From Burkholderiales bacterium PBB6 (GTDB taxonomy: Bacteria > Pseudomonadota > Gammaproteobacteria > Burkholderiales > Burkholderiaceae_C), in the NCBI GenBank assembly GCA_002255925.1, contig NKIH01000003.1:186001-250000 (forward strand): 64,000 nucleotides of DNA. The letters are read 5' to 3'. Both the position numbers and the translations under genes were made by a program. This document shows, piece after piece, positions 35,537-45,838 of this stretch; the stretch's first letter is position 1, and each line of letters begins with the position of its first letter. The notes beneath the pieces were generated by a model. It was not told the origin of the DNA and searched no databases. It saw nothing but the letters and a program-made list of their open reading frames with translations.

Positions 35537-35858
35537 TCGGAAGTCGTCTGTCAGCCGGTGCAGCCGCGGAGACACGGACGCACCCGAGCGGCCATGTCTG
35601 GCCGGCGCAAGAAGGGCTGGAGACGCGGCGCGCGGAGTGGCGCCGGCAGATAGGGCCGTGCTGCGCACCGGTACCGGTTCACGGTACGGCGCCAGTACGG
35701 CGAGCCGGTGTCAGGCGCGCGAAGCGGCCAGCCAGAGGGTGGGGTTCAGGGCTTGAATCATGGCGAGCTCCTTTCCGAATCAGGGCAAGTGGCTTGCCCG
35801 GGGCGCGGCTTGAGGCCAAACCGCGCCGTGGCAGTGTCTGACTGAATTCCGTGTGGTG
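35537..35858 (-). promoter_or_regulatory. Structured rsgA leader region
   Basis: These 322 bases between rsgA and the response regulator gene hold a 16-codon ORF with a strong ribosome binding site and several inverted repeats. GGGCAAG/CTTGCCC at 35783-35799 and GGCGCGG/CCGCGCC at 35802-35827 lie before the ORF. CACCGG/CCGGTG enclosing two smaller hairpins at 35666-35710 starts directly after its stop codon. The layout resembles an attenuator or leader-peptide switch. No poly-T tract is visible. Confidence 0.55.
35711..35761 (-). CDS. Putative 16-residue leader peptide upstream of rsgA
   Basis: The ORF reads MIQALNPTLWLAASRA. AAAGGAG lies 6 nt before its ATG, the best ribosome binding site in this part of the window. 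The stop codon is immediately followed by the first strand of a 6-bp stem that encloses two further hairpins. A ribosome on the ORF would disrupt that stem, so translation could control the downstream rsgA mRNA. It might instead be a functional small protein. No homologue is known to me. Confidence 0.5.
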   Translation of the reverse strand: MIQALNPTLWLAASRA

Positions 35859-36275
35859 TCAAGCCTGGCTCAGGCGTTGAGCCAGCGCCTGGAACACGGC
35901 CGGGCTGGCGGGCTTGACGACAAAGTCCAGTACCGCCGGGTGGCTCAATGCCCGCTGGTGTTCTTCTTCGTCGGGGGACGACGACAGCATCACCACAGGC
36001 AAGGTGCGCAGCGCTGCATCGGGCAGCGCCGACTTCGCGTCCAGAAACGCAAAGCCGCCCATGCCGGGCATGTTGATGTCCAGCAGCAGCAAGGTGGGCA
36101 GATCGCCGCCGCTCTCGGCGCACTGGCACAGCGCCGTGAGCGCCAGATCGGCCCGCGGACAGGTGACCACCTCTGCGGCCACGCCTGAGCGCTGCAGCCA
36201 GATTTCGGCCAGCAGCAAGTCGGTCTCGCTGTCGTCAATCACCATCACCCGGGGCCAGGGCATCGGCAGGCTCAT
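35859..36275 (-). CDS. Single-domain response regulator (REC only)
   Basis: This 138-residue protein is one receiver domain with all key residues: the acidic pair in VMVIDDSETD, the phosphoacceptor in LLLLDINMPGMGG, serine in VVMLSSS and lysine in FVVKPAS. There is no output domain, so it should act by protein contact or as a phosphorelay shuttle. Its ATG overlaps the stop of the kinase gene by four bases (ATGA). It is the third gene of the binding-protein/kinase/regulator operon. Confidence 0.93.
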   Translation of the reverse strand: MSLPMPWPRVMVIDDSETDLLLAEIWLQRSGVAAEVVTCPRADLALTALCQCAESGGDLPTLLLLDINMPGMGGFAFLDAKSALPDAALRTLPVVMLSSSPDEEEHQRALSHPAVLDFVVKPASPAVFQALAQRLSQA

Positions 36276-37909
36276 GTGTGGCTCTCCATCGTTGCCTCAG
36301 CGGCAAATTCATTGTTCTGGGGCAAGGCGATGCATACCCGCGACCCCTCGGCCACATCGGCATCCAGCCACATCGATCCGCCGTGCACCTCGACCGCATG
36401 GCGGCATAGCGCCAGGCTGGCATCCAGCTCGCTTTCGGCCAGCACATCGGGCGGCAAGGCCAGGCCGTGGTCACGCACGCTGATGATCAGGCGGCCGGGC
36501 GTCAGCAGCACCTGCACCGCCACCCTGGGTGGCTCGCCGGCCAGGCCCGCCTTCATGGCCCGGCTCAGCAGGTTCTGGAACAGCAGCACCAGCAAGGAGC
36601 GCCGGCCCAGCACCTGCGGCAGGGCTTGTCGCTGCACCTGCAGGCCGGTCTCTCGCACCCTGGCCGCCAGTGAATCCAGCGCCTGGTTCAACACATCGTC
36701 CAGCGGCACGAGTGTGACAGGCTCGGTGGCGTCGCGGTCGAGCCGCGCATGGTCCAGCAGGGAATCGAGCAAGCGCCGCATGCGCACCGCGGCATCCTGC
36801 ACATGCGACAGGAACTGTGCGGAGCGCGGCGCCAGGCGGCCGGCCTCGTCCTGCTGCAACAGTTGGCTGAAGCTGGCGATGGTGTTCACGGGCTCGCGCA
36901 GGTCATGAGAGGCCATCCGCGCAAAAGCCTGCAGGCCCTCATGGGCGCGACTGAGCTGCTGCAGCGAGCTCTGCAGCTCGGCCCGCTGGCGCCGCTGGTC
37001 TTCGATGCTGATGCCGAGCATCAGCACCGGCAGCAGCGTCAGCACCAGCGGCAGGTTGATGAACAGGGATTCCCAGGACGCCGAGATGGGCGGTGGCACG
37101 AACCAGCCCAGCGCCGTGGCCAGCCCCACCGTGAGCGCCGTGACAAACGTGGCCAGCGCCAGCACCGGGAATGGCGACAGGCTGGCGGCGGCCAGCAAGG
37201 GCACGGCCATGTAAGCGAACGGCATCGGCAACCAGGCGCCGGCCACCAGCGTGGCGGCCGTGCACAGCAGCAGCAGCGCCAGCGTGCCAGGACGCACCCA
37301 CACCCGCAGCAGCTCAGCCCGGGGGATGGTCAGCACGCAGATGGCCAGCGGCAGTGTCACGACATTGCCGATCAAGTCGCCCTCCAACCAGGTCAGCGCC
37401 ACGTCTTGCCACGGCAGGGCGCGGGTGCTGGTGCTAGAGAACGCCAGCGTTCCCAACACCGTGCCCACAACAGCCGGCAACAAGGCACCGCGCCACAGGC
37501 CAGACATGAAGGCGCGCGGCCCCTGCTGCAACATGCGCCAGGCCCGCCCGCCTGACAGCAACCAGGCGGCCACGGCCACTTCCAGCACATTGGCGGGCAA
37601 GAACACCAGCGTGTCAAGAAACGCATCGCCCGCCGCCAGGTTGGCCAGCAGGTTCGCCAGCGCCACCGCGGTCAGCGCCAAGGCGACCTGCACACCGCGG
37701 CCCTGGATGCCCTGCACGCGGGTCGACAGCCACGCGATGGCCCAACCGTTGGCCAACCACAGGCTGGCCACACTGCCAGGCTGCCTGGACAGCAGAATCG
37801 ACACCCAGGCCAGCACCAGGAATCCGAGGCCCAACGCCCACCAGGAACCCGCCGGGTCGGACGGCCCCTGGGTGTGCCACCCGGTGCGCCAGCCGAAGGA
37901 CGCGCTCAC
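36272..37909 (-). CDS. MASE1-type histidine kinase with degenerate ATP-binding domain
   Basis: This 545-residue protein has about eight membrane segments in residues 15-290, resembling a MASE1 sensor domain. A coiled coil, a HisKA domain with His335 in ASHDLREPV and a C-terminal HATPase-like domain follow. The catalytic domain is degraded. The second N-box asparagine is Arg (QNLLSRAMK), the G1 box reads DHGLALPP instead of DxGxGIPP, and the G2 glycine loop is replaced by LDASLALC. ATP binding is therefore doubtful. GTG at 37909 overlaps the upstream stop by four bases. It probably signals through its histidine or as a phosphatase, with the partner receiver intact. Confidence 0.85.
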   Translation of the reverse strand: MSASFGWRTGWHTQGPSDPAGSWWALGLGFLVLAWVSILLSRQPGSVASLWLANGWAIAWLSTRVQGIQGRGVQVALALTAVALANLLANLAAGDAFLDTLVFLPANVLEVAVAAWLLSGGRAWRMLQQGPRAFMSGLWRGALLPAVVGTVLGTLAFSSTSTRALPWQDVALTWLEGDLIGNVVTLPLAICVLTIPRAELLRVWVRPGTLALLLLCTAATLVAGAWLPMPFAYMAVPLLAAASLSPFPVLALATFVTALTVGLATALGWFVPPPISASWESLFINLPLVLTLLPVLMLGISIEDQRRQRAELQSSLQQLSRAHEGLQAFARMASHDLREPVNTIASFSQLLQQDEAGRLAPRSAQFLSHVQDAAVRMRRLLDSLLDHARLDRDATEPVTLVPLDDVLNQALDSLAARVRETGLQVQRQALPQVLGRRSLLVLLFQNLLSRAMKAGLAGEPPRVAVQVLLTPGRLIISVRDHGLALPPDVLAESELDASLALCRHAVEVHGGSMWLDADVAEGSRVCIALPQNNEFAAEATMESHT

Positions 37910-38823
37910 GACCGCGCCCCTGTTCGTTGGCCGCGCCACCACCAGACCGCCACCACCAACGCCAGCACGGTCAGCAAGCCCAGCGCCCACCACAGGCCGC
38001 GAGGCATGGCCAAAGGCTGCTCGGGCGCAGAGAGCCAGCGCGCGCGCAAGCTGGCGCGGTCCGCAGTGCTCAGCTGGCGAATGCCGGCGTCCAGCTCGTC
38101 GCGCAGCGCAGGCAGGTCCTTGCGCACCCCGAAGCTCAAGGCATAGTCAAAACCGACCGACTCGCCCACCGTCAGACCGGTCAGATGGTGCTGCCGCATC
38201 ACGAAGCCGGCGCTGGCCAGATCCACCACCGCTGCTGCGGCTCGCCCTTCGCTCACGGCCTTGAGGGCCAGCACGTCGTCCGTCACGGCTTGCCAGTTGA
38301 TGCCCGGGTAGGCCTTCCGCACAAAACCCTCGACGCCGTAGCCTTGCCCCACGGTCACTGTCTGGCCTTCCAGCGCCTGCAACTGGACCTGGCCACCGTC
38401 ACGGCTCACCACCACGGCGGGCACGTTCACATAGGCGCTGGTGAAGATGAGATAGGCCGCGCGCTCAGGGGTGGGGCGCACCGAGGTGACGAAATCAGCC
38501 GCGCCGGCTTTGAGCGCCGCGAGTTGTTGGGCCAGCGGAGCCGCCGGAAGGGCCTGCCAAGGCACGCCACCACGCTGGGCCACCAGCGCCAGCACATCGA
38601 CCGACAGCCCGGCCAGCTGGCCCTGGTCGTCGATGTAGACGAAGGGGCCGTAATCGCGCTCAGGGGCCATGCGCCAAGAGCGGCCGGCCGGCGCGCTGGC
38701 CGCAGGCACAGACGCAACCGATTGCAGCGGCGCCGACACCTGTGCCTTCGTCGGCACAGCCGCCAGCAGCAGCACCACGCCAACAAAGACCAGCAACCTG
38801 AATGGCGACCGCAAGTACTTCAT
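37906..38823 (-). CDS. Membrane-anchored periplasmic solute-binding sensor (SBP_bac_3 type)
   Basis: This 305-residue protein starts at ATG 38823 with a signal peptide (core LLVFVGVVLLLAAVP). The middle (about residues 50-270) is a family-3 solute-binding domain. It has GPFVYIDDQGQLAGLSVDVL at the start and the VTSVRPTPERAAYLIFTSAY segment typical of amino-acid or similar binding proteins. The end is a transmembrane helix rich in Trp and Leu. In BvgS-like sensors this domain is fused to the kinase; here it is a separate protein anchored in the membrane. It is translationally coupled to the MASE1 kinase gene, so it likely presents a ligand signal to it. Confidence 0.85.
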   Translation of the reverse strand: MKYLRSPFRLLVFVGVVLLLAAVPTKAQVSAPLQSVASVPAASAPAGRSWRMAPERDYGPFVYIDDQGQLAGLSVDVLALVAQRGGVPWQALPAAPLAQQLAALKAGAADFVTSVRPTPERAAYLIFTSAYVNVPAVVVSRDGGQVQLQALEGQTVTVGQGYGVEGFVRKAYPGINWQAVTDDVLALKAVSEGRAAAAVVDLASAGFVMRQHHLTGLTVGESVGFDYALSFGVRKDLPALRDELDAGIRQLSTADRASLRARWLSAPEQPLAMPRGLWWALGLLTVLALVVAVWWWRGQRTGARS

Positions 38824-38965: not shown

Positions 38966-39979
38966 ATGAAACTCTCTGTCCTCGATCAATCCATTGCCCT
39001 GAGCGGCAGTGGCGAAGATGCGGCCATCCGTGACACGCTCGATCTGGCCCAGATGGCCGAGCGCCTGGGCTATCACCGGTTCTGGGTCAGCGAGCACCAC
39101 GGCATGCCGACCATCGTCGGCAGCGCCCCCGAGATCCTGATGGCTGCGGTGGCCGCGCGCACCCAGCGCATCCGCATCGGCAGTGCCGGCGTGATGCTGC
39201 CGCACTACTCGGCACTGAAGGTGGCCGAGCAGTTCCGGGTGCTGGACGCGCTGGCGCCGGGCCGCATCGACCTGGGCGTGGGCCGCGCGCCCGGCAGCGA
39301 CATGCGCACCGCCATGGCGCTGAACCCGGACGCCCACCAGGCCGCCGAGCAATTCCCGGCGCAGATCCAGGATCTGCAGCGCTGGTCAGCCGGGCTGCTG
39401 CACAAGGGCATCACGGCCCAACCGCGCCCACCGCTCGACATGGTCGGGCGGCCCGAGCGCAGCCCCGACATCTGGGTGCTGGGCAGCAGTGACTACGGCG
39501 CTCGCCTGGCCGCGGCGCTCGGCCTGCCTTACGCCTTCGCCTACTTCTTCATGGACGGGCAAGGCGCCGAGCAGGCGCTGCGCCTGTACCGCGAGCTCTA
39601 CCAGTCCAGCGAACGCCACCCCCGCCCGCAAGCCACCATCTGCGTCTGGGCACTGGCGGCCGACAAGGCGGAAGACGCCCTGCACCACGCCCTGAGCCGC
39701 GAGCGCTGGCGCGTTGACCGTCAGCGCGGCCGGCTGGGCCCGCTGCAAAACCCCGATCACATCGCCGCGCAGGGCTTCGACCCCGAGGCCATGGCCACCA
39801 TCGTGGCGCCGATGCGTGAGCGGGCCCTGGTGGGCGACCGCGCCTTTGTCGGCCAAGCTCTGCGTGGGCTGGCCGAAACGTTCAATCTGGACGAACTCGT
39901 GATCAATACATGGACCTACAACCCCGAGGTTCGGCGCCGCTCTTACGCCTTGATAGCGGAGGAATTCCGGCTCCAGTGA
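38966..39979 (+). CDS. LLM-class flavin-dependent monooxygenase-like protein (YhbW type)
   Basis: This 337-residue protein belongs to the bacterial luciferase-like family of flavin-dependent oxidoreductases. The N terminus KLSVLDQS and the FWVSEHHGMPTIVGSAPE region match YhbW-like members, and the WVLGSSDYGARLAAALGLPYAFAYFF segment is typical of the barrel (given as residues about 170-195). The physiological substrate of this group is not known. It stands alone, divergent from the sensory operon. The window shows no partner flavin reductase. Confidence 0.92.
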   Translation: MKLSVLDQSIALSGSGEDAAIRDTLDLAQMAERLGYHRFWVSEHHGMPTIVGSAPEILMAAVAARTQRIRIGSAGVMLPHYSALKVAEQFRVLDALAPGRIDLGVGRAPGSDMRTAMALNPDAHQAAEQFPAQIQDLQRWSAGLLHKGITAQPRPPLDMVGRPERSPDIWVLGSSDYGARLAAALGLPYAFAYFFMDGQGAEQALRLYRELYQSSERHPRPQATICVWALAADKAEDALHHALSRERWRVDRQRGRLGPLQNPDHIAAQGFDPEAMATIVAPMRERALVGDRAFVGQALRGLAETFNLDELVINTWTYNPEVRRRSYALIAEEFRLQ

Positions 39980-40015
39980 ACCCCTGTTCGCAGTTTCACC
40001 ACAAAACGTCACAAT

Positions 40016-40246
40016 ATGGGGATGGAAACCATTGAATTCGCGCTGCGGGGCGAGCACATCACGCTCGATGCGCTACTGAAGGCCACCGGGCTGGCCCACA
40101 GCGGCGGCGCCGCCAAGATGTTGATCGCTGACGGTGAAGTGCAGGTCGACGGCGCCGTGGAGCAGCGCAAGACCTGCAAGATCAGAACCGGACAAGTCGT
40201 TCAGCTGGGCGACGTGCGCGTCCGGCTGCTCGCCGAAGCCGCCTGA
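40016..40246 (+). CDS. S4-domain RNA-binding protein (YbcJ-like)
   Basis: This 76-residue protein is a single S4 RNA-binding domain: ITLDALLKATGLAHSGGAAKML and DGEVQVDGAVEQRKTCKI are the conserved blocks. YbcJ-like proteins associate with ribosome-related RNA, but the exact target is not known. A second in-frame ATG two codons later is an alternative start. It lies between the flavin monooxygenase gene and a LuxR-type regulator gene. Confidence 0.93.
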   Translation: MGMETIEFALRGEHITLDALLKATGLAHSGGAAKMLIADGEVQVDGAVEQRKTCKIRTGQVVQLGDVRVRLLAEAA

Positions 40247-40279
40247 CGCTTTTTCCCCAACGCCGTTTTGCTGTCATCC

Positions 40280-40924
40280 ATGAAGTGCCTGCTCATTGAC
40301 GATCACGCCCTGTTCCGTGAAGCCTTGTCGCTGTTGATGACGCACCGCCACCCGGAGGTGCCGCTGGTGAACTGCGGCACGCTGGCCGATGGGCTGGTGG
40401 CGCTGGCCGCTGCGCCCGACATCAGCCTGGTGCTGCTGGACCTGAACCTGCCCGACAGCCGGGGCGTGGCCACGCTGCAACGCCTGCGGGAAGCCGCCCC
40501 GATGCCGCGGGTGATCGTGGTGTCGGCCGATGACCGCGCCGAGACGATCATGAACGCCATCGACGCGGGCGCCGTGGGCTTCATCCCGAAAACGGCAGAC
40601 ATCGAGGCGCTGGACGCCGGCTTGCGCACCGTGCTGGCCGGCGGCATCGCCATGCCGCGCCTGATGCACAGCACCGTGCCAGTGCATGACCTGCTGCCCG
40701 GTGCGCTCTCAGACATGGGGCTGACACCGCGCCAGATGGACGTTTTCCGCCTCGTCATCGAAGGCAAATCAAACAAGCTGATCGCCCGCGAACTGGGCGT
40801 GTCCGATTCCACCGTGAAAACCCACGTGCAGGCGATCTTCGAGCGGCTGGACATCAGCTCTCGCGCCCAGGCCGTGGTGGTGGCGGCCCGCATGGGCTGG
40901 GAATTGCCGGCGCCCTCGCGCTGA
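40280..40924 (+). CDS. LuxR/NarL-family response regulator
   Basis: This 214-residue regulator has an N-terminal receiver domain with LLIDDHALFREAL, phosphoacceptor aspartate in LVLLDLNLPDSRG, VIVVSADD and lysine in IPKTADI. The C-terminal helix-turn-helix is LTPRQMDVFRLVIEGKSNKLIARELGVSDSTVKTHV (residues about 150-185). All residues for phosphorylation and DNA binding are present. It ends 15 nt from the end of a convergent hybrid kinase gene, its likely partner. The target genes are unknown. Confidence 0.94.
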   Translation: MKCLLIDDHALFREALSLLMTHRHPEVPLVNCGTLADGLVALAAAPDISLVLLDLNLPDSRGVATLQRLREAAPMPRVIVVSADDRAETIMNAIDAGAVGFIPKTADIEALDAGLRTVLAGGIAMPRLMHSTVPVHDLLPGALSDMGLTPRQMDVFRLVIEGKSNKLIARELGVSDSTVKTHVQAIFERLDISSRAQAVVVAARMGWELPAPSR

Positions 40925-40939
40925 GCTCAGCGTCGCAAT

Positions 40940-43324
40940 TCAGCCCCGCTCGCCCGGCACCACCTCGCGCATCGCGTCGAACAGCGCCTCTGACGAAAAC
41001 GGCTTGTGCAGCACCCGCAGGCCAGTGGCTTGCAGACGGGCCAGATCGGCGGGCGCGGTGTCGCCGGTGATGATCAGCGCTGGCAGATCGGGCCACCTCG
41101 GCTGCAGCACCCCCAGCACATCCATCGCGTTGCCGTCCGGCAGGCGCTGATCACTCATCACCAGATCCAGCGTTTGCGGCAGGCCTTGCCGCTGCAGCGC
41201 ATCACGCAGGGCGGCCACGCTGCCGTAACACTGCACCCGGGCGCCCCAGGTTTCGATGCGCAGCCGCAATGACTCGCGGATGCCTTCGTCATCGTCCACC
41301 ACCACAATCTGCATGCCCCGCAGACTGCGCGGCTTGGCTGGCGCCACCGTGGCAATGCGCTGCGCCGCACCAACGCGCGGCAGCATCAGCGAGAAGCAAC
41401 TGCCCTTGCCCGGCACGGAGCGCAAGCTCAGCGGCACCGCCATCAGCTGCGAAGCCCGCCGCACCAGCGACAGGCCCAGACCCAGGCCGCGGTGGCGCTC
41501 TCGGGCCGGGTTGTCGAGCTGAACAAATTCTTCAAAGATGCTGGCCTGCTTGTCGTCCGGCACGCCGCAGCCGGTGTCCCACACCTGCAGCAGCACGCCG
41601 TCACCGCGACGCCGGGCCGCCACCAGCACGCCGCCGCGCTCGGTGTAGCGCACGGCATTGCTGACGAGGTTGCGCACCATCTGCTCCAGCAGCACCGGAT
41701 CGGCCTGCACCGACAGGCCGCTGGCATGCAGTCGGAGTTGCAGGCCTTTCAGGGCAGCGGCGTCGCGCTCATGGGCGGCCACAGCGTCAAACAGGCTTTG
41801 CAGTTGCAGGCGCTGCGGCCGCACCTGGACCGAGCCGGCGTCGAACCGCGACATGTCGAGCAGGCCCTTGAGCAGTGATTCGAGCGCCGCCACCGATTCC
41901 GTCAGGCGATCGAGCACCGCACGGCTGGCGCTGCCATTGACCTGTTCCCGCAGCAAACCGGCCAGCAGGCCGATGCTGGCCACCGGCTGTCGCAGGTCAT
42001 GGCTGGCGGCGGCCACGAAGCGAGTTTTCGCGGCGTTGGCGGCCTGCAGCTCGCGGGTGCGGTCAGCCACACGTTGTTCCAGCAACTGGCCATGGTGCTC
42101 AGACAGATCAAGCGCCTGCACGAAGCGCTGCAACAGCACGCGTGCGCCCACCAGCAGCAGCAGCGGGCTGACCCACGGCACCCAGAAGGTGCCCATCAGG
42201 TGGTTGAGCACGGGCTGCATCCCCAGGTAGGGCAAGCCGCCGGTGGCATAGAGGTAGTCATGCACGGCAGCCACCACCAGCGCGCCCAGTGCCACTGCCA
42301 TGCCACGGCGCGCGAGCGGTGCCAGCTGGCGCACGCCCTGCCAGAGCAGCCAGGCCACCCAGCACAGCACCACGAGGAAGCAGGGGTAGACCCACTGCCT
42401 GACCAGCACCATGCGGTCCAGCCAGAGCCCCAGCGCACCAATCAGCAGCATCAGGGCCAGCACCGCGACCACCGCCGCGCGCGGCAAGGGCCACGGCCGG
42501 CGCGCAATCGCCAGTGCAAAGCCAGCCACCAGCGGCGCACTGAACACCTGGGCCGCGTAGAACAGGTAATCGGACACCGCCGGCGGCAGGTGGCCGTTGG
42601 TGACGAAGTAGGCCATGTTGCGCACCGACACCAGCAGCCAGAGCGCCCCGAAGTAGCCCAGTACGCGCTCAGCCGGCCGCAGCCACCAGATCAGCAGGAT
42701 GAACAAGGCCAGGCCTGCAGCCGCCATGTTCAGCGCCTGCGGCAAGGACACGGTGAACCACACCAGCCGGTCAAAGTCAGGCCGCAGCGCGTCAGCCGGC
42801 CCGAGGGTGACGGGCGCCAAGGCGCCGACGCGGTGACTCAACTCCAGCGTCATCAGCAATTCATTGGAACCGGCCCGCAGCAGGTTGGGCGGCACATCCA
42901 CCCACTGCGCCGGCAGGGCAAACCGGCGCACCAGGGCGCGGTCTTGCAAGGCACCGCTCAGCAGCTGGCCGTTCAGCGTGAGTTGCCGGTCGGGTGGCAT
43001 GCGGTCGGCGCGCATGGCCCACATGGTGGTGGGCACGGCCGGCAAGTCAAAGCGCAGGCGGAAGGTCAGCCGCCGTGAGGTGTCAGTGGCTGTCGAGCGC
43101 CACCGGTAGGGCAAGGTCGTGGGCACCCAGCGCCCCGACTCGTCCTGCACCTCGACCTCGGGCATCACCACGCCCGGCTCGATGGCAACGGGCGCGGCCA
43201 AGGCCGAAGACGCCGCAGCCACCAGCAGGCACAGCCCAGCCAGACACAACAGGACGAACCCGGCCAGCGAGCGAGCGCTGACCCGGGCGGGCGTGAGAGG
43301 AAACCAGAAAAATGGGGCGCGCAT
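40940..43324 (-). CDS. Hybrid histidine kinase with 7TMR-DISM-type sensor
   Basis: This 794-residue sensor starts at ATG 43324, followed by a signal-like segment. A periplasmic beta-rich domain resembling 7TMR-DISMED2 (about residues 45-185), seven membrane helices (about 190-395), HisKA (AASHDLRQPV), HATPase and a C-terminal receiver follow. The catalytic domain is intact: N-box VRNLVSNAVRY, G1 DTGCGVP, F-box FEEF and G2 RGLGLGLSL. The receiver shows VVVDDDEG, SDQRLPD and HKPF. The ligand may be a carbohydrate, as for related DISM domains. It converges on the LuxR regulator, a probable partner. Confidence 0.92.
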   Translation of the reverse strand: MRAPFFWFPLTPARVSARSLAGFVLLCLAGLCLLVAAASSALAAPVAIEPGVVMPEVEVQDESGRWVPTTLPYRWRSTATDTSRRLTFRLRFDLPAVPTTMWAMRADRMPPDRQLTLNGQLLSGALQDRALVRRFALPAQWVDVPPNLLRAGSNELLMTLELSHRVGALAPVTLGPADALRPDFDRLVWFTVSLPQALNMAAAGLALFILLIWWLRPAERVLGYFGALWLLVSVRNMAYFVTNGHLPPAVSDYLFYAAQVFSAPLVAGFALAIARRPWPLPRAAVVAVLALMLLIGALGLWLDRMVLVRQWVYPCFLVVLCWVAWLLWQGVRQLAPLARRGMAVALGALVVAAVHDYLYATGGLPYLGMQPVLNHLMGTFWVPWVSPLLLLVGARVLLQRFVQALDLSEHHGQLLEQRVADRTRELQAANAAKTRFVAAASHDLRQPVASIGLLAGLLREQVNGSASRAVLDRLTESVAALESLLKGLLDMSRFDAGSVQVRPQRLQLQSLFDAVAAHERDAAALKGLQLRLHASGLSVQADPVLLEQMVRNLVSNAVRYTERGGVLVAARRRGDGVLLQVWDTGCGVPDDKQASIFEEFVQLDNPARERHRGLGLGLSLVRRASQLMAVPLSLRSVPGKGSCFSLMLPRVGAAQRIATVAPAKPRSLRGMQIVVVDDDEGIRESLRLRIETWGARVQCYGSVAALRDALQRQGLPQTLDLVMSDQRLPDGNAMDVLGVLQPRWPDLPALIITGDTAPADLARLQATGLRVLHKPFSSEALFDAMREVVPGERG

Positions 43325-43412
43325 GAGGATGGTCTGGCAAGCGACGATTGTCATCGCGACCATCGCACGCGCGCCATACGCCGAAAGAGCTAAGCGGCGA
43401 CCACCCGGCCCA

Positions 43413-45689
43413 TCACAGCTTCATTTCCAGTTGCAGGCGCCAGTTCACATGGCTGCTGGCCAGCGTGGTGGCGGTTTCGCCGTCCACTTCGCTGATGCTC
43501 TCGGTGCCGCGGGGCATCAGGTTGCTGGCCGAGAGGCGCACGCGCGTGGTGGTGTTGAGCTGCCACATCGCGTAGGCGTCAAACACGCGCTTGGTGTTCT
43601 GGGTCAGGTACTGGGTCTCGCTGAGGCGGGTGGTGTAGCCCGGCGTCCAGTTCACATTGCCGCCCACCGTGAGCGGCACGCCCGGCAGCTTGTAATCAGC
43701 CCCCAGATTCAAGGTGCCGCCGGGTTGCTGGTCGAGGCGGTTATCCGGGCCAGGCACTTGCTTGACGCGCGAGCGGAAGATGCTGGCATTGCTGCGCAGC
43801 TCCACGCCCGGCAGGTCAGCATCCATGTCGCTGAGCTTGAATTTGGCTTCCAGCTCAACGCCCTGGGTGATGGCATCCCCCACGTTGTCCATCTTCGACA
43901 CCCAGCGCTGGCTGCCGTCGGTTTGCGGGGTCAGGCTCACCACCGTGCGCATCAGGTCAGTGATCTGGCGATGGAACAGGTTGACGCTGAGCATGCCGCT
44001 GCCCACCAGATAGCGCTCCAGTGCCAGGTCGATGCCCGTGGCCATTTCGGGCTTCAGGTCGGGGTTGCCGGCGCGGTCGGGGTTGGTCTGGCTGTTGTCG
44101 CCCTTCGAGCGCCAGGTGGCGCCCACCAGGCTGGACAAGCCCGGCGAGCGATAGCTGCGCGTCAGGCTGATACGAACCTGGTCACGGCCCTTGGGGTCCG
44201 GCTTCCAGACGGCGTGCAGCAGCGGCGTCCAGACGCTGGAGCGGTTGCTGCGCTCATCGCTGGCCGAGCCACCCGTGGTGCTGATGCCTTCCCAGCGCAG
44301 GCCGGCGTAAGCGCCCCAGTTCGGGTTCACCTGCCATTCGTCCTGGGCATACAGCGCGCTGCGCAAGGAACGAGCGCGCAGGTCGTTGCCAAACTCATTG
44401 GCCACGGCCACGCCGTCCACCAGCTGCTCGCGGGTTTCGGTGCGGCGCGCCGAATCGAGCTCGGCGCCCATCACCAGCTGGTGGTCGCCCTCCAGCAGGC
44501 TCGAGTACTTGGCGTTCAGGTTGAGCGATCGCTCGGTGGCGTCCAGCGCATCGTCGTAGTTGATCTTGCTGCCGCTGGTCAGCAGCTCGGTGCGCAGCGT
44601 GTGGCTGGCATTGCCCGCCTGGCCCGCACCACCGCGCACTTCCAGGCGGCCGTCACCCACCGGCAAGCGCCACTGGCCATTCAGGCGCACCAGCGAAAAG
44701 CGCCAGTCGGTGCTGCCCATGCTGCTCTCGTAGGGCAGCGTGCCCAGCACCGGCGCGTCAAAGGTCGACTGGCGGCGAGTGTCACCCTCCGAGTAGATGA
44801 CCAACGGCATCAGCATCAGCGACTGACCTTCCACCGGCTTGAGCTGCAGGCGGCCGGTCAGGTGCAGGCCCTGGCGATGGTCGACGGAGCTCAAACGCTC
44901 GGTGCGGTCGGTATCGGCCGATTCGGTCTGGATGGTGGAAGCGTTCGAGCGGTTGTCCTTGAACGCGGACAGGGCCACGTTGTAGTCCAGCTCGCCGAGC
45001 TTGTCGTCACGCGACCATGAAAAGCTTGGCTGCGCGCGGCCCTGCTCCAGACCGGTCGAGATACGCAGATCATTCAGGCGCTTGACGAAGCCCTCGCGCG
45101 TGATGATGTTGATCGTGCCGCCAATCGCGCGGGCGCCGGTTTCGGCGGTGGGGGCGCGGATGATTTCAATGCGCTCCACCTGGTCGGGGTCGATGGTGTC
45201 GAGCGACAGACCGCCCTGCACACGTTCGCCGTCCAGCAGGATCTGGGTGTAGCCGCTGCCCAGGCCGCGCATGCGGATGGCGCCCCCGCGGCCTGGCTGG
45301 CCCTGGATCGTCACGCCAGGAAGGCGCTTGAGCAACTCGCCCACGGACGCATCACCGTACTTCGAGATTTCATCGCGGCCCACCACGATCTTGGCCGCGG
45401 TCGAGCGGCGGCGCAGTTCGGTGTCGGTTTCGCGCCCGCCAGTGATCTCAACCCGCTGCGTGCCGGCCGGTGCGGCCGTGGAGGTGGTGGGTGCGCCCTT
45501 GGCGTCTGGCTTGACGTCTGGCTTTGGGGAGGCCTCTGCAGCCGGCGTGTCGGCCGTCTGAACCACCGGTGCAGCTGGTGCGGCGGGGGTGGCTGGTGCA
45601 GGCGTCTGGGCCTGGCTGCTTGCGGCACCCAGGCTGGTGAGCAGGGTCAGGCAAGCGGTGCGCAGTGGCGTCAATGCAAGGGTGGGCAT
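43413..45689 (-). CDS. TonB-dependent outer-membrane receptor
   Basis: This 758-residue outer-membrane protein has a signal peptide (residues 1 to about 28), a Pro/Ala-rich spacer and a TonB-box-like TQRVEITG near residue 80. The plug domain follows (LLKRLPGVTIQGQPGRGG, then RMRGLGSGYTQILLDGERVQGG, residues about 115-160, and INIITREG). The rest forms the 22-stranded barrel. The last residue is Leu rather than the usual Phe. It should import a siderophore, metal complex or other scarce ligand; the ligand cannot be told. No iron-uptake genes are adjacent. It diverges from the APH-type kinase gene. Confidence 0.93.
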   Translation of the reverse strand: MPTLALTPLRTACLTLLTSLGAASSQAQTPAPATPAAPAAPVVQTADTPAAEASPKPDVKPDAKGAPTTSTAAPAGTQRVEITGGRETDTELRRRSTAAKIVVGRDEISKYGDASVGELLKRLPGVTIQGQPGRGGAIRMRGLGSGYTQILLDGERVQGGLSLDTIDPDQVERIEIIRAPTAETGARAIGGTINIITREGFVKRLNDLRISTGLEQGRAQPSFSWSRDDKLGELDYNVALSAFKDNRSNASTIQTESADTDRTERLSSVDHRQGLHLTGRLQLKPVEGQSLMLMPLVIYSEGDTRRQSTFDAPVLGTLPYESSMGSTDWRFSLVRLNGQWRLPVGDGRLEVRGGAGQAGNASHTLRTELLTSGSKINYDDALDATERSLNLNAKYSSLLEGDHQLVMGAELDSARRTETREQLVDGVAVANEFGNDLRARSLRSALYAQDEWQVNPNWGAYAGLRWEGISTTGGSASDERSNRSSVWTPLLHAVWKPDPKGRDQVRISLTRSYRSPGLSSLVGATWRSKGDNSQTNPDRAGNPDLKPEMATGIDLALERYLVGSGMLSVNLFHRQITDLMRTVVSLTPQTDGSQRWVSKMDNVGDAITQGVELEAKFKLSDMDADLPGVELRSNASIFRSRVKQVPGPDNRLDQQPGGTLNLGADYKLPGVPLTVGGNVNWTPGYTTRLSETQYLTQNTKRVFDAYAMWQLNTTTRVRLSASNLMPRGTESISEVDGETATTLASSHVNWRLQLEMKL

Positions 45690-45838
45690 GAACTGGTTTC
45701 TTTGTAAGAGTGGGCATTTTGTGTGATGTGCGCGCAGAAGGTTCCGCCAAATTGCGCGCTGCCAGCCCAATGCAAAGGCTTGTGAACCACCCGCCACAAT
45801 CGGCACCCGTGCACCCCACCCCATTCACCCCCGGATTG

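Follow-up and report, generated by a model that had tools for sequence, protein, structure and literature searches.

A tethered solute-binding protein, a MASE1 histidine kinase whose ATP site is very probably dead, and a lone receiver encoded together in Burkholderiales bacterium PBB6

In the excerpted report on ChpT, the ATP lid is replaced and neither ATP nor ADP was seen to bind (PMC3433190). PhyP and PhyT, in a similar excerpt, are membrane-anchored and have a degenerate ATPase domain (PMC5898713), and part of the work on PhyK and LovK describes phosphate being passed with G1 and G2 mutated and without autokinase activity (PMC5964349). BvgS carries tandem solute-binding protein (SBP) domains within its kinase chain (PMC5829827, in excerpt). 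Passages of a study in Salmonella describe the sensing of arginine by ArtI, a free SBP that acts on the diguanylate cyclase YedQ, as well as a response of the MASE1 protein YfeA to 5-oxoproline, for which the authors suggest a binding protein as a possible direct sensor (PMC9509341). The MASE1 domain of YfgF is reported to be tied to aspartate responses and redox (PMC3718329), and the excerpted text of a 2022 review places MASE1 among sensory domains without discernible purpose (PMC8846402). The E. coli kinase UhpB gives a MASE1 match at 2.3e-16 and is encoded beside the membrane sensor UhpC, annotated as a glucose-6-phosphate sensor; this adjacency makes it an earlier example of a MASE1 kinase that has a partner in the membrane.

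The sensor described here lies in a window, the whole stretch of DNA analysed, of 64,000 nucleotides. Three genes follow one another in the order SBP, kinase and receiver, with a 4-nt overlap at each junction (Table 1), and a first-pass annotation of the window had already given their coordinates, order and coupling correctly. A 16-residue ORF, MIQALNPTLWLAASRA (window 35711-35761, - strand), with a good-looking ribosome site lies between the receiver and an RsgA-like gene. Genes for an LLM-like protein, a LuxR-type regulator, a hybrid kinase and a TonB receptor (window 38969-45824) occur in the same order in another genome, G007 (L212 10395-17005), and this set appears to be a mobile or conserved cassette.

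Table 1. Features of the three-gene sensor, in window positions
Feature	Position	Strand	Basis or remark
SBP_bac_3 protein gene	37906..38823	-	305 aa; 38823-37906 in reading direction
Arg121 of SBP (TPER)	38461..38463	-	R in 29/29 MASE1-partnered SBPs
Asp201 of SBP (VVD)	38221..38223	-	D in 29/29 MASE1-partnered SBPs
MASE1-HisKA-HATPase pseudokinase gene (putative)	36272..37909	-	545 aa; GTG start inside SBP stop (GTGA)
Divergent MASE1 membrane domain, residues 20-308	36986..37852	-	DgcE model and alignment to 7 Pfam-recognised MASE1 domains
DHp (HisKA) domain, residues 316-396, SHDLREP	36722..36964	-	Pfam HisKA 6e-12; 41-51% identical to intact relatives
Phospho-acceptor His335	36905..36907	-	alignment to relatives
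Arg450 in place of N-box Asn	36560..36562	-	alignment
G1 box DHGLA, residues 480-484, last Gly lost	36458..36472	-	alignment
Point of 14-residue ATP-lid/F-box deletion, between Glu492 and Ser493	36433..36434	-	alignment; three-frame check
G2 box GTGLG reads ELDAS, residues 494-498	36416..36430	-	alignment
Lone receiver gene	35859..36275	-	138 aa; phytochrome-RR (Rcp1/DrRR)-like; start inside kinase stop (ATGA)
Phosphorylatable Asp66 of receiver	36078..36080	-	residue check

The first gene product matches Pfam SBP_bac_3 at 9.7e-20 and has a hydrophobic N-terminal signal, a periplasmic binding domain (about residues 50-268) and one C-terminal transmembrane helix, followed by a short basic tail computed at 11 residues. 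Besides the Pfam match it has the amino-acid-binding residues of this class: R121 stands where, as we take it, amino-acid SBPs have the Arg that binds the alpha-carboxylate, and D201 presumably where they have the Asp that binds the amino group. The best match among solved structures is 7ejg, named an EAL domain-containing protein and probably, we assume, RmcA; BvgS is second-best at 9.3e-21.

The first-pass annotation regarded this kind of SBP as normally fused to its kinase and the locus as a BvgS-like receptor split apart. Fusion is indeed the rule for BvgS-type kinases, but not for the MASE1 family sampled here. Searches with an alignment of MASE1 domains (A2) found members in 28 of 399 genomes of the family, 16 of 399 of the order and 5 of 369 of the class, with the window's own genome in each count. 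They yielded 51 distinct matches, and 48 were examined with their flanks (the three left out are in G537, G1065 and G1096). An SBP gene stands directly upstream of MASE1 on the same strand in 29 of the 48 loci, its stop 20-108 nt ahead of the MASE1 domain, and every one of these 29 SBPs ends with a hydrophobic segment and a tail of 5-21 residues. In at least one of the loci that have no SBP (L105), the contig stops just ahead of MASE1. Seven of the eight alignment seeds are SBP-linked; with the seeds excluded, 22 of 40 loci are. The pairs span 15 genera and five families, and the window locus has the same form, an SBP gene with a C-terminal transmembrane segment directly before a MASE1 gene. 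With 11 SBP_bac_3 matches over the 4.4 Mb of the window's genome, and about 4000 genes assumed, chance SBP neighbours should amount to well under 1%. SBP and MASE1 distances are correlated (r 0.56, with 0 of 2000 permutations as high), a correlation to which common descent contributes.

The outputs of the 29 pairs, as assigned by HMM, are 6 kinases, 3 hybrid kinases, 15 GGDEF, 4 GGDEF-EAL and 1 split frame followed by GGDEF. The separate SBP thus recurs ahead of MASE1 with several outputs, and for this reason the split-BvgS reading was rejected; as judged from gene order, SBP_bac_3 and MASE1 form a recurrent two-gene receptor and not a broken BvgS. We found no paper on the gene pair in the open-access literature, among the matches listed. 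The GGDEF motif is present in all 32 GGDEF domains of the examined MASE1 proteins. One SBP-linked MASE1-GGDEF gene, L108, is split across two frames. Motif departures among the SBP-linked kinases are confined to the window protein and to L117 and L119, in which G1 alone is changed (NGG.P/L) and the N-box and G2 are intact.

Pfam MASE1 (PF05231) gives no match at E<=1 in the window kinase, so the MASE1 label of the first-pass annotation fails by that measure. It stands by two others: seven of the eight A2 members carry a Pfam MASE1 call, and the window domain aligns over its length to these recognised domains at 33-38% identity, and positions 21-309 of the NCBIfam DgcE model match residues 25-324 at 6.6e-26. 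For these reasons we take the domain to be a divergent MASE1.

The kinase core matches HATPase_c (9.4e-10) in addition to HisKA, and its motifs were scored against nine other kinase cores and three full-length relatives (L026, L027 and L028). Among the hallmarks of an active HisKA kinase only the H-box His is present (His335, recognised from the start as the acceptor); the N-box, G1, F-box and lid, and G2 are not. G1 has gone from DNGIG to DHGLA, with Asp480 and Gly482 retained and the final Gly gone, and in comparison with the three relatives the ATP lid and F-box are removed by an in-frame deletion of 14 residues. The altered N-box, G1 and G2 had been seen in the first reading, and the doubt it raised about ATP binding is supported by the sequence; the F-box and lid deletion had escaped mention, so the loss was understated. 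An ATP site changed at so many points is very probably dead. A frameshift concealing the G2 box was considered and rejected, since the other reading frames have no such motif. It is very doubtful indeed that the protein still works as a kinase through residual or unusual ATP use: HATPase_c scores above the Pfam cut-off (39.4 against 26.4 bits) and the Asp of G1 is kept, but nothing is left of the N-box Asn, the F-box, the lid or the G2 glycines. An assembly or sequencing artefact would suit a protein seen in one genome only, but is hardly credible for an in-frame loss accompanied by separate substitutions at the N-box, G1 and G2, with no motif in the other frames. The predicted model of the core is of low confidence (mean pLDDT 38.1).

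In canonical HisKA kinases the residue needed for phosphatase activity is a Thr or Asn four positions after the His. That residue is Glu in the window kinase and in two of L026-L028, and Gly in L028. Phosphatase, phosphotransfer hub and conformational signalling, the three roles originally offered for the kinase, would look alike at the level of sequence. The receiver (Pfam Response_reg 2.1e-11) was described as fully intact, and so it is, with D14, D15, D66, S98 and K121 all present.

To place these changes we aligned the ATPase domains of the window's genome, where 79 of 81 HATPase_c matches were alignable (L191 and L211 could not be aligned) and the aligned rows include ATPases other than kinases. 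An acceptor His is found in 60 of the 79 rows, and 59 of these 60 have the N-box Asn; the window kinase, with Arg, is the sole exception. Single motif departures are not rare, since some other rows depart at G1 or in the lid, but the combined loss with a retained His is rare in this genome. Two further rows have neither the His nor the N-box Asn, and both are degenerate kinase-like proteins: L208 (G000:C24:473900-475500) has Glu in the acceptor column (EDLREP), and L209 (G000:C24:241500-243100) has Gln there (AQQLRRP) together with changes in the N-box and G1. Trans-phosphorylation occurs in other kinases, and the protein could be the dead half of a mixed dimer with an active kinase, whose CA domain would phosphorylate it in trans. 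The retained His335 and dimerisation helices would allow this, as would the 60 His-bearing rows, but we regard it as highly unlikely, given that a census of His motifs in the genome found no second SHDLREP protein.

A search at E<=1e-30 returned the protein from one genome among the 16 of the genus and from 14 genomes among the 399 of the family, its own genome included; most of the 14 match one half of the kinase only. A plasmid search gave 17 records matching the kinase core only, and a search of genome contigs gave two distant loci. L026, L027 and L028 have the same gene set in the order receiver, SBP, MASE1-kinase, as against SBP, kinase, receiver in the window, and L029 combines an SBP with a hybrid kinase. 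The kinase motifs of L026-L028 are intact, which the first-pass annotation would have counted against its own interpretation. By sequence, however, these relatives do not revive the window kinase; because their motifs are intact, the kinase-dead state appears to be special to the window lineage. The MASE1 tree groups the window protein with L109 and L112, apart from L026-L028, which are accordingly relatives with the same gene set and not proven orthologues.

Identity between the window proteins and L026-L028 was set against identity among those three. The values are 44-51% against 50-63% for the SBP, 35-37% against 48-55% for MASE1, 41-51% against 53-59% for the DHp domain and 43-49% against 57-63% for the receiver, but 23-32% against 48-57% from G1 to the end of the CA domain. 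A divergence scan with 60-column windows, 682 in all, had a median ratio of 0.78 and its lowest ratio, 0.49, at residues 462-521 (N-box end to G2), a minimum reached by a fraction of 0.0002 of 5000 random 60-column sets, a figure uncorrected for scanning. A second low (0.50) lies at residues 262-321, which cover the last part of MASE1 and the linker. Third-position GC over four sections of the kinase is 0.79-0.90, still coding-type. On the identity comparison, scan, third-position GC and invariant Arg121 and Asp201, the input, acceptor helix and receiver look maintained, and the nucleotide site and the linker into DHp do not.

The main rival explanation is that of a decaying kinase, whose catalytic arm drifts after the need for it was lost while the operon is still expressed, with sensor function absent or residual. 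The protein occurs in one genome of the genus, its CA part and its MASE1-DHp linker have both diverged, and the fact that divergence at residues 262-321 matches that of the dead site could mean general relaxation. Furthermore, no degenerate sibling was found in the 16 genomes of the genus or the 399 of the family, where initial scoring took some candidates per genome, and a second family draw returned already known genomes and added none. Selection for the kinase-dead state therefore cannot be shown, and decay stays a rival to be taken seriously. We nevertheless consider it unlikely, as the reading frames are open, the overlaps are preserved, the codons are of coding type, the ligand residues of the SBP are invariant, the receiver is intact, and the nucleotide site is affected while other active residues are spared. 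The joint change of linker and CA, and a dead CA domain, would also suit a conformational module in which the ligand decides whether the kinase binds the receiver or lets it go, with no phosphate on His335. This is distinctly unlikely in our judgement, since a pure scaffold would not need His335 and SHDLREP, which are kept.

The explanation we prefer, at somewhat less than even chances, is a ligand-gated pseudokinase whose His335 handles phosphate on the lone receiver, in the manner of ChpT, PhyT and PhyK. Judging from the gene pairing and the precedents, the tethered SBP would close on an amino-acid-like ligand and contact the MASE1 bundle, and this contact would shift the signalling helix and the DHp dimer. 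The DHp domain would very probably not phosphorylate itself, because the CA domain could not hold ATP. Phosphate may instead pass between His335 and Asp66 of the co-translated receiver. The pseudokinase would then be a ligand-gated phosphotransferase or phosphate drain, and the receiver may get its phosphate from another kinase or from acetyl phosphate. Such a protein would derive from an SHDLREP kinase, independently of ChpT, PhyT and PhyK. Loss of the nucleotide site at every level, with His335, the DHp domain, the receiver and the Arg and Asp of the SBP kept, argues for a phosphotransferase, though not to the point of making it the probable answer; the recurrence of SBP, MASE1-kinase and lone receiver in L026-L028 leans the same way, with the same reserve. 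Against it stand the missing sibling, the divergence of the MASE1 end and linker, and the MASE1 tree, which parts the window from those loci. No donor kinase for the receiver was identified, and the His-motif census has no second SHDLREP protein. The neighbouring hybrid kinase (40940-43363) is not supported as a dedicated donor, because G007 keeps the cassette in a 19-kb region with no SBP or receiver match, where the sole kinase match lies inside the hybrid kinase.

More broadly, and as a tentative proposal, an anchored SBP_bac_3 protein and MASE1 may form a split receptor of a general kind, one that senses amino-acid-like solutes and has exchangeable outputs, of which the kinase output here became a ligand-gated histidine phosphotransferase on a lone receiver. 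MASE1 is widespread, and the pairing is the more useful result, because the excerpted review lists MASE1 without a discernible purpose (PMC8846402): a tethered amino-acid-type SBP ahead of MASE1 in so many loci makes the MASE1 input testable and may reveal what the domain listens to. The candidate pseudokinase, for its part, would add a membrane receptor, with intact relatives available for comparison, to the short list of kinases turned phosphotransferases.

Among described systems, BvgS and EvgS share the SBP_bac_3 sensing domain with the window system, but the tandem fusion of the BvgS family is replaced here by one SBP on its own transmembrane helix and a separate MASE1 kinase. ArtI is a transport SBP, whereas the window SBP is tethered and co-encoded with MASE1. 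The partner of UhpB is a transporter-like membrane protein and not an SBP; UhpB itself is a HisKA_3 kinase with the DNA-binding activator UhpA as its output. In the window system, kinase core and receiver match bacteriophytochrome kinases and phytochrome response regulators, but the window kinase has no photosensory domain, has MASE1 and the SBP as its putative input, and has an apparently dead CA domain. ChpT and Spo0B are dimeric histidine phosphotransferases derived from kinases, and like the window kinase they combine a DHp domain bearing an acceptor His with a CA domain that has no hold on ATP. ChpT has no membrane receptor or SBP partner, whereas the window kinase has a DHp domain of the SHDLREP, phytochrome-kinase type and a lone receiver as partner. 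The partners of PhyP/PhyT, PhyK and LovK include, in the excerpted papers, single-domain receivers (the SDRRs SdrG and MrrA), which may be compared with the lone receiver here (PMC5898713, PMC5964349). These proteins are HisKA_2/HWE or HRxxN kinases of Alphaproteobacteria and the window protein is a HisKA kinase with MASE1, which points to an independent origin. In sequence, the window kinase has the combination that marks ChpT and PhyT, a DHp domain kept beside a CA domain predicted to be unable to bind ATP, and we put forward the resemblance as one of possible working and not of membership.
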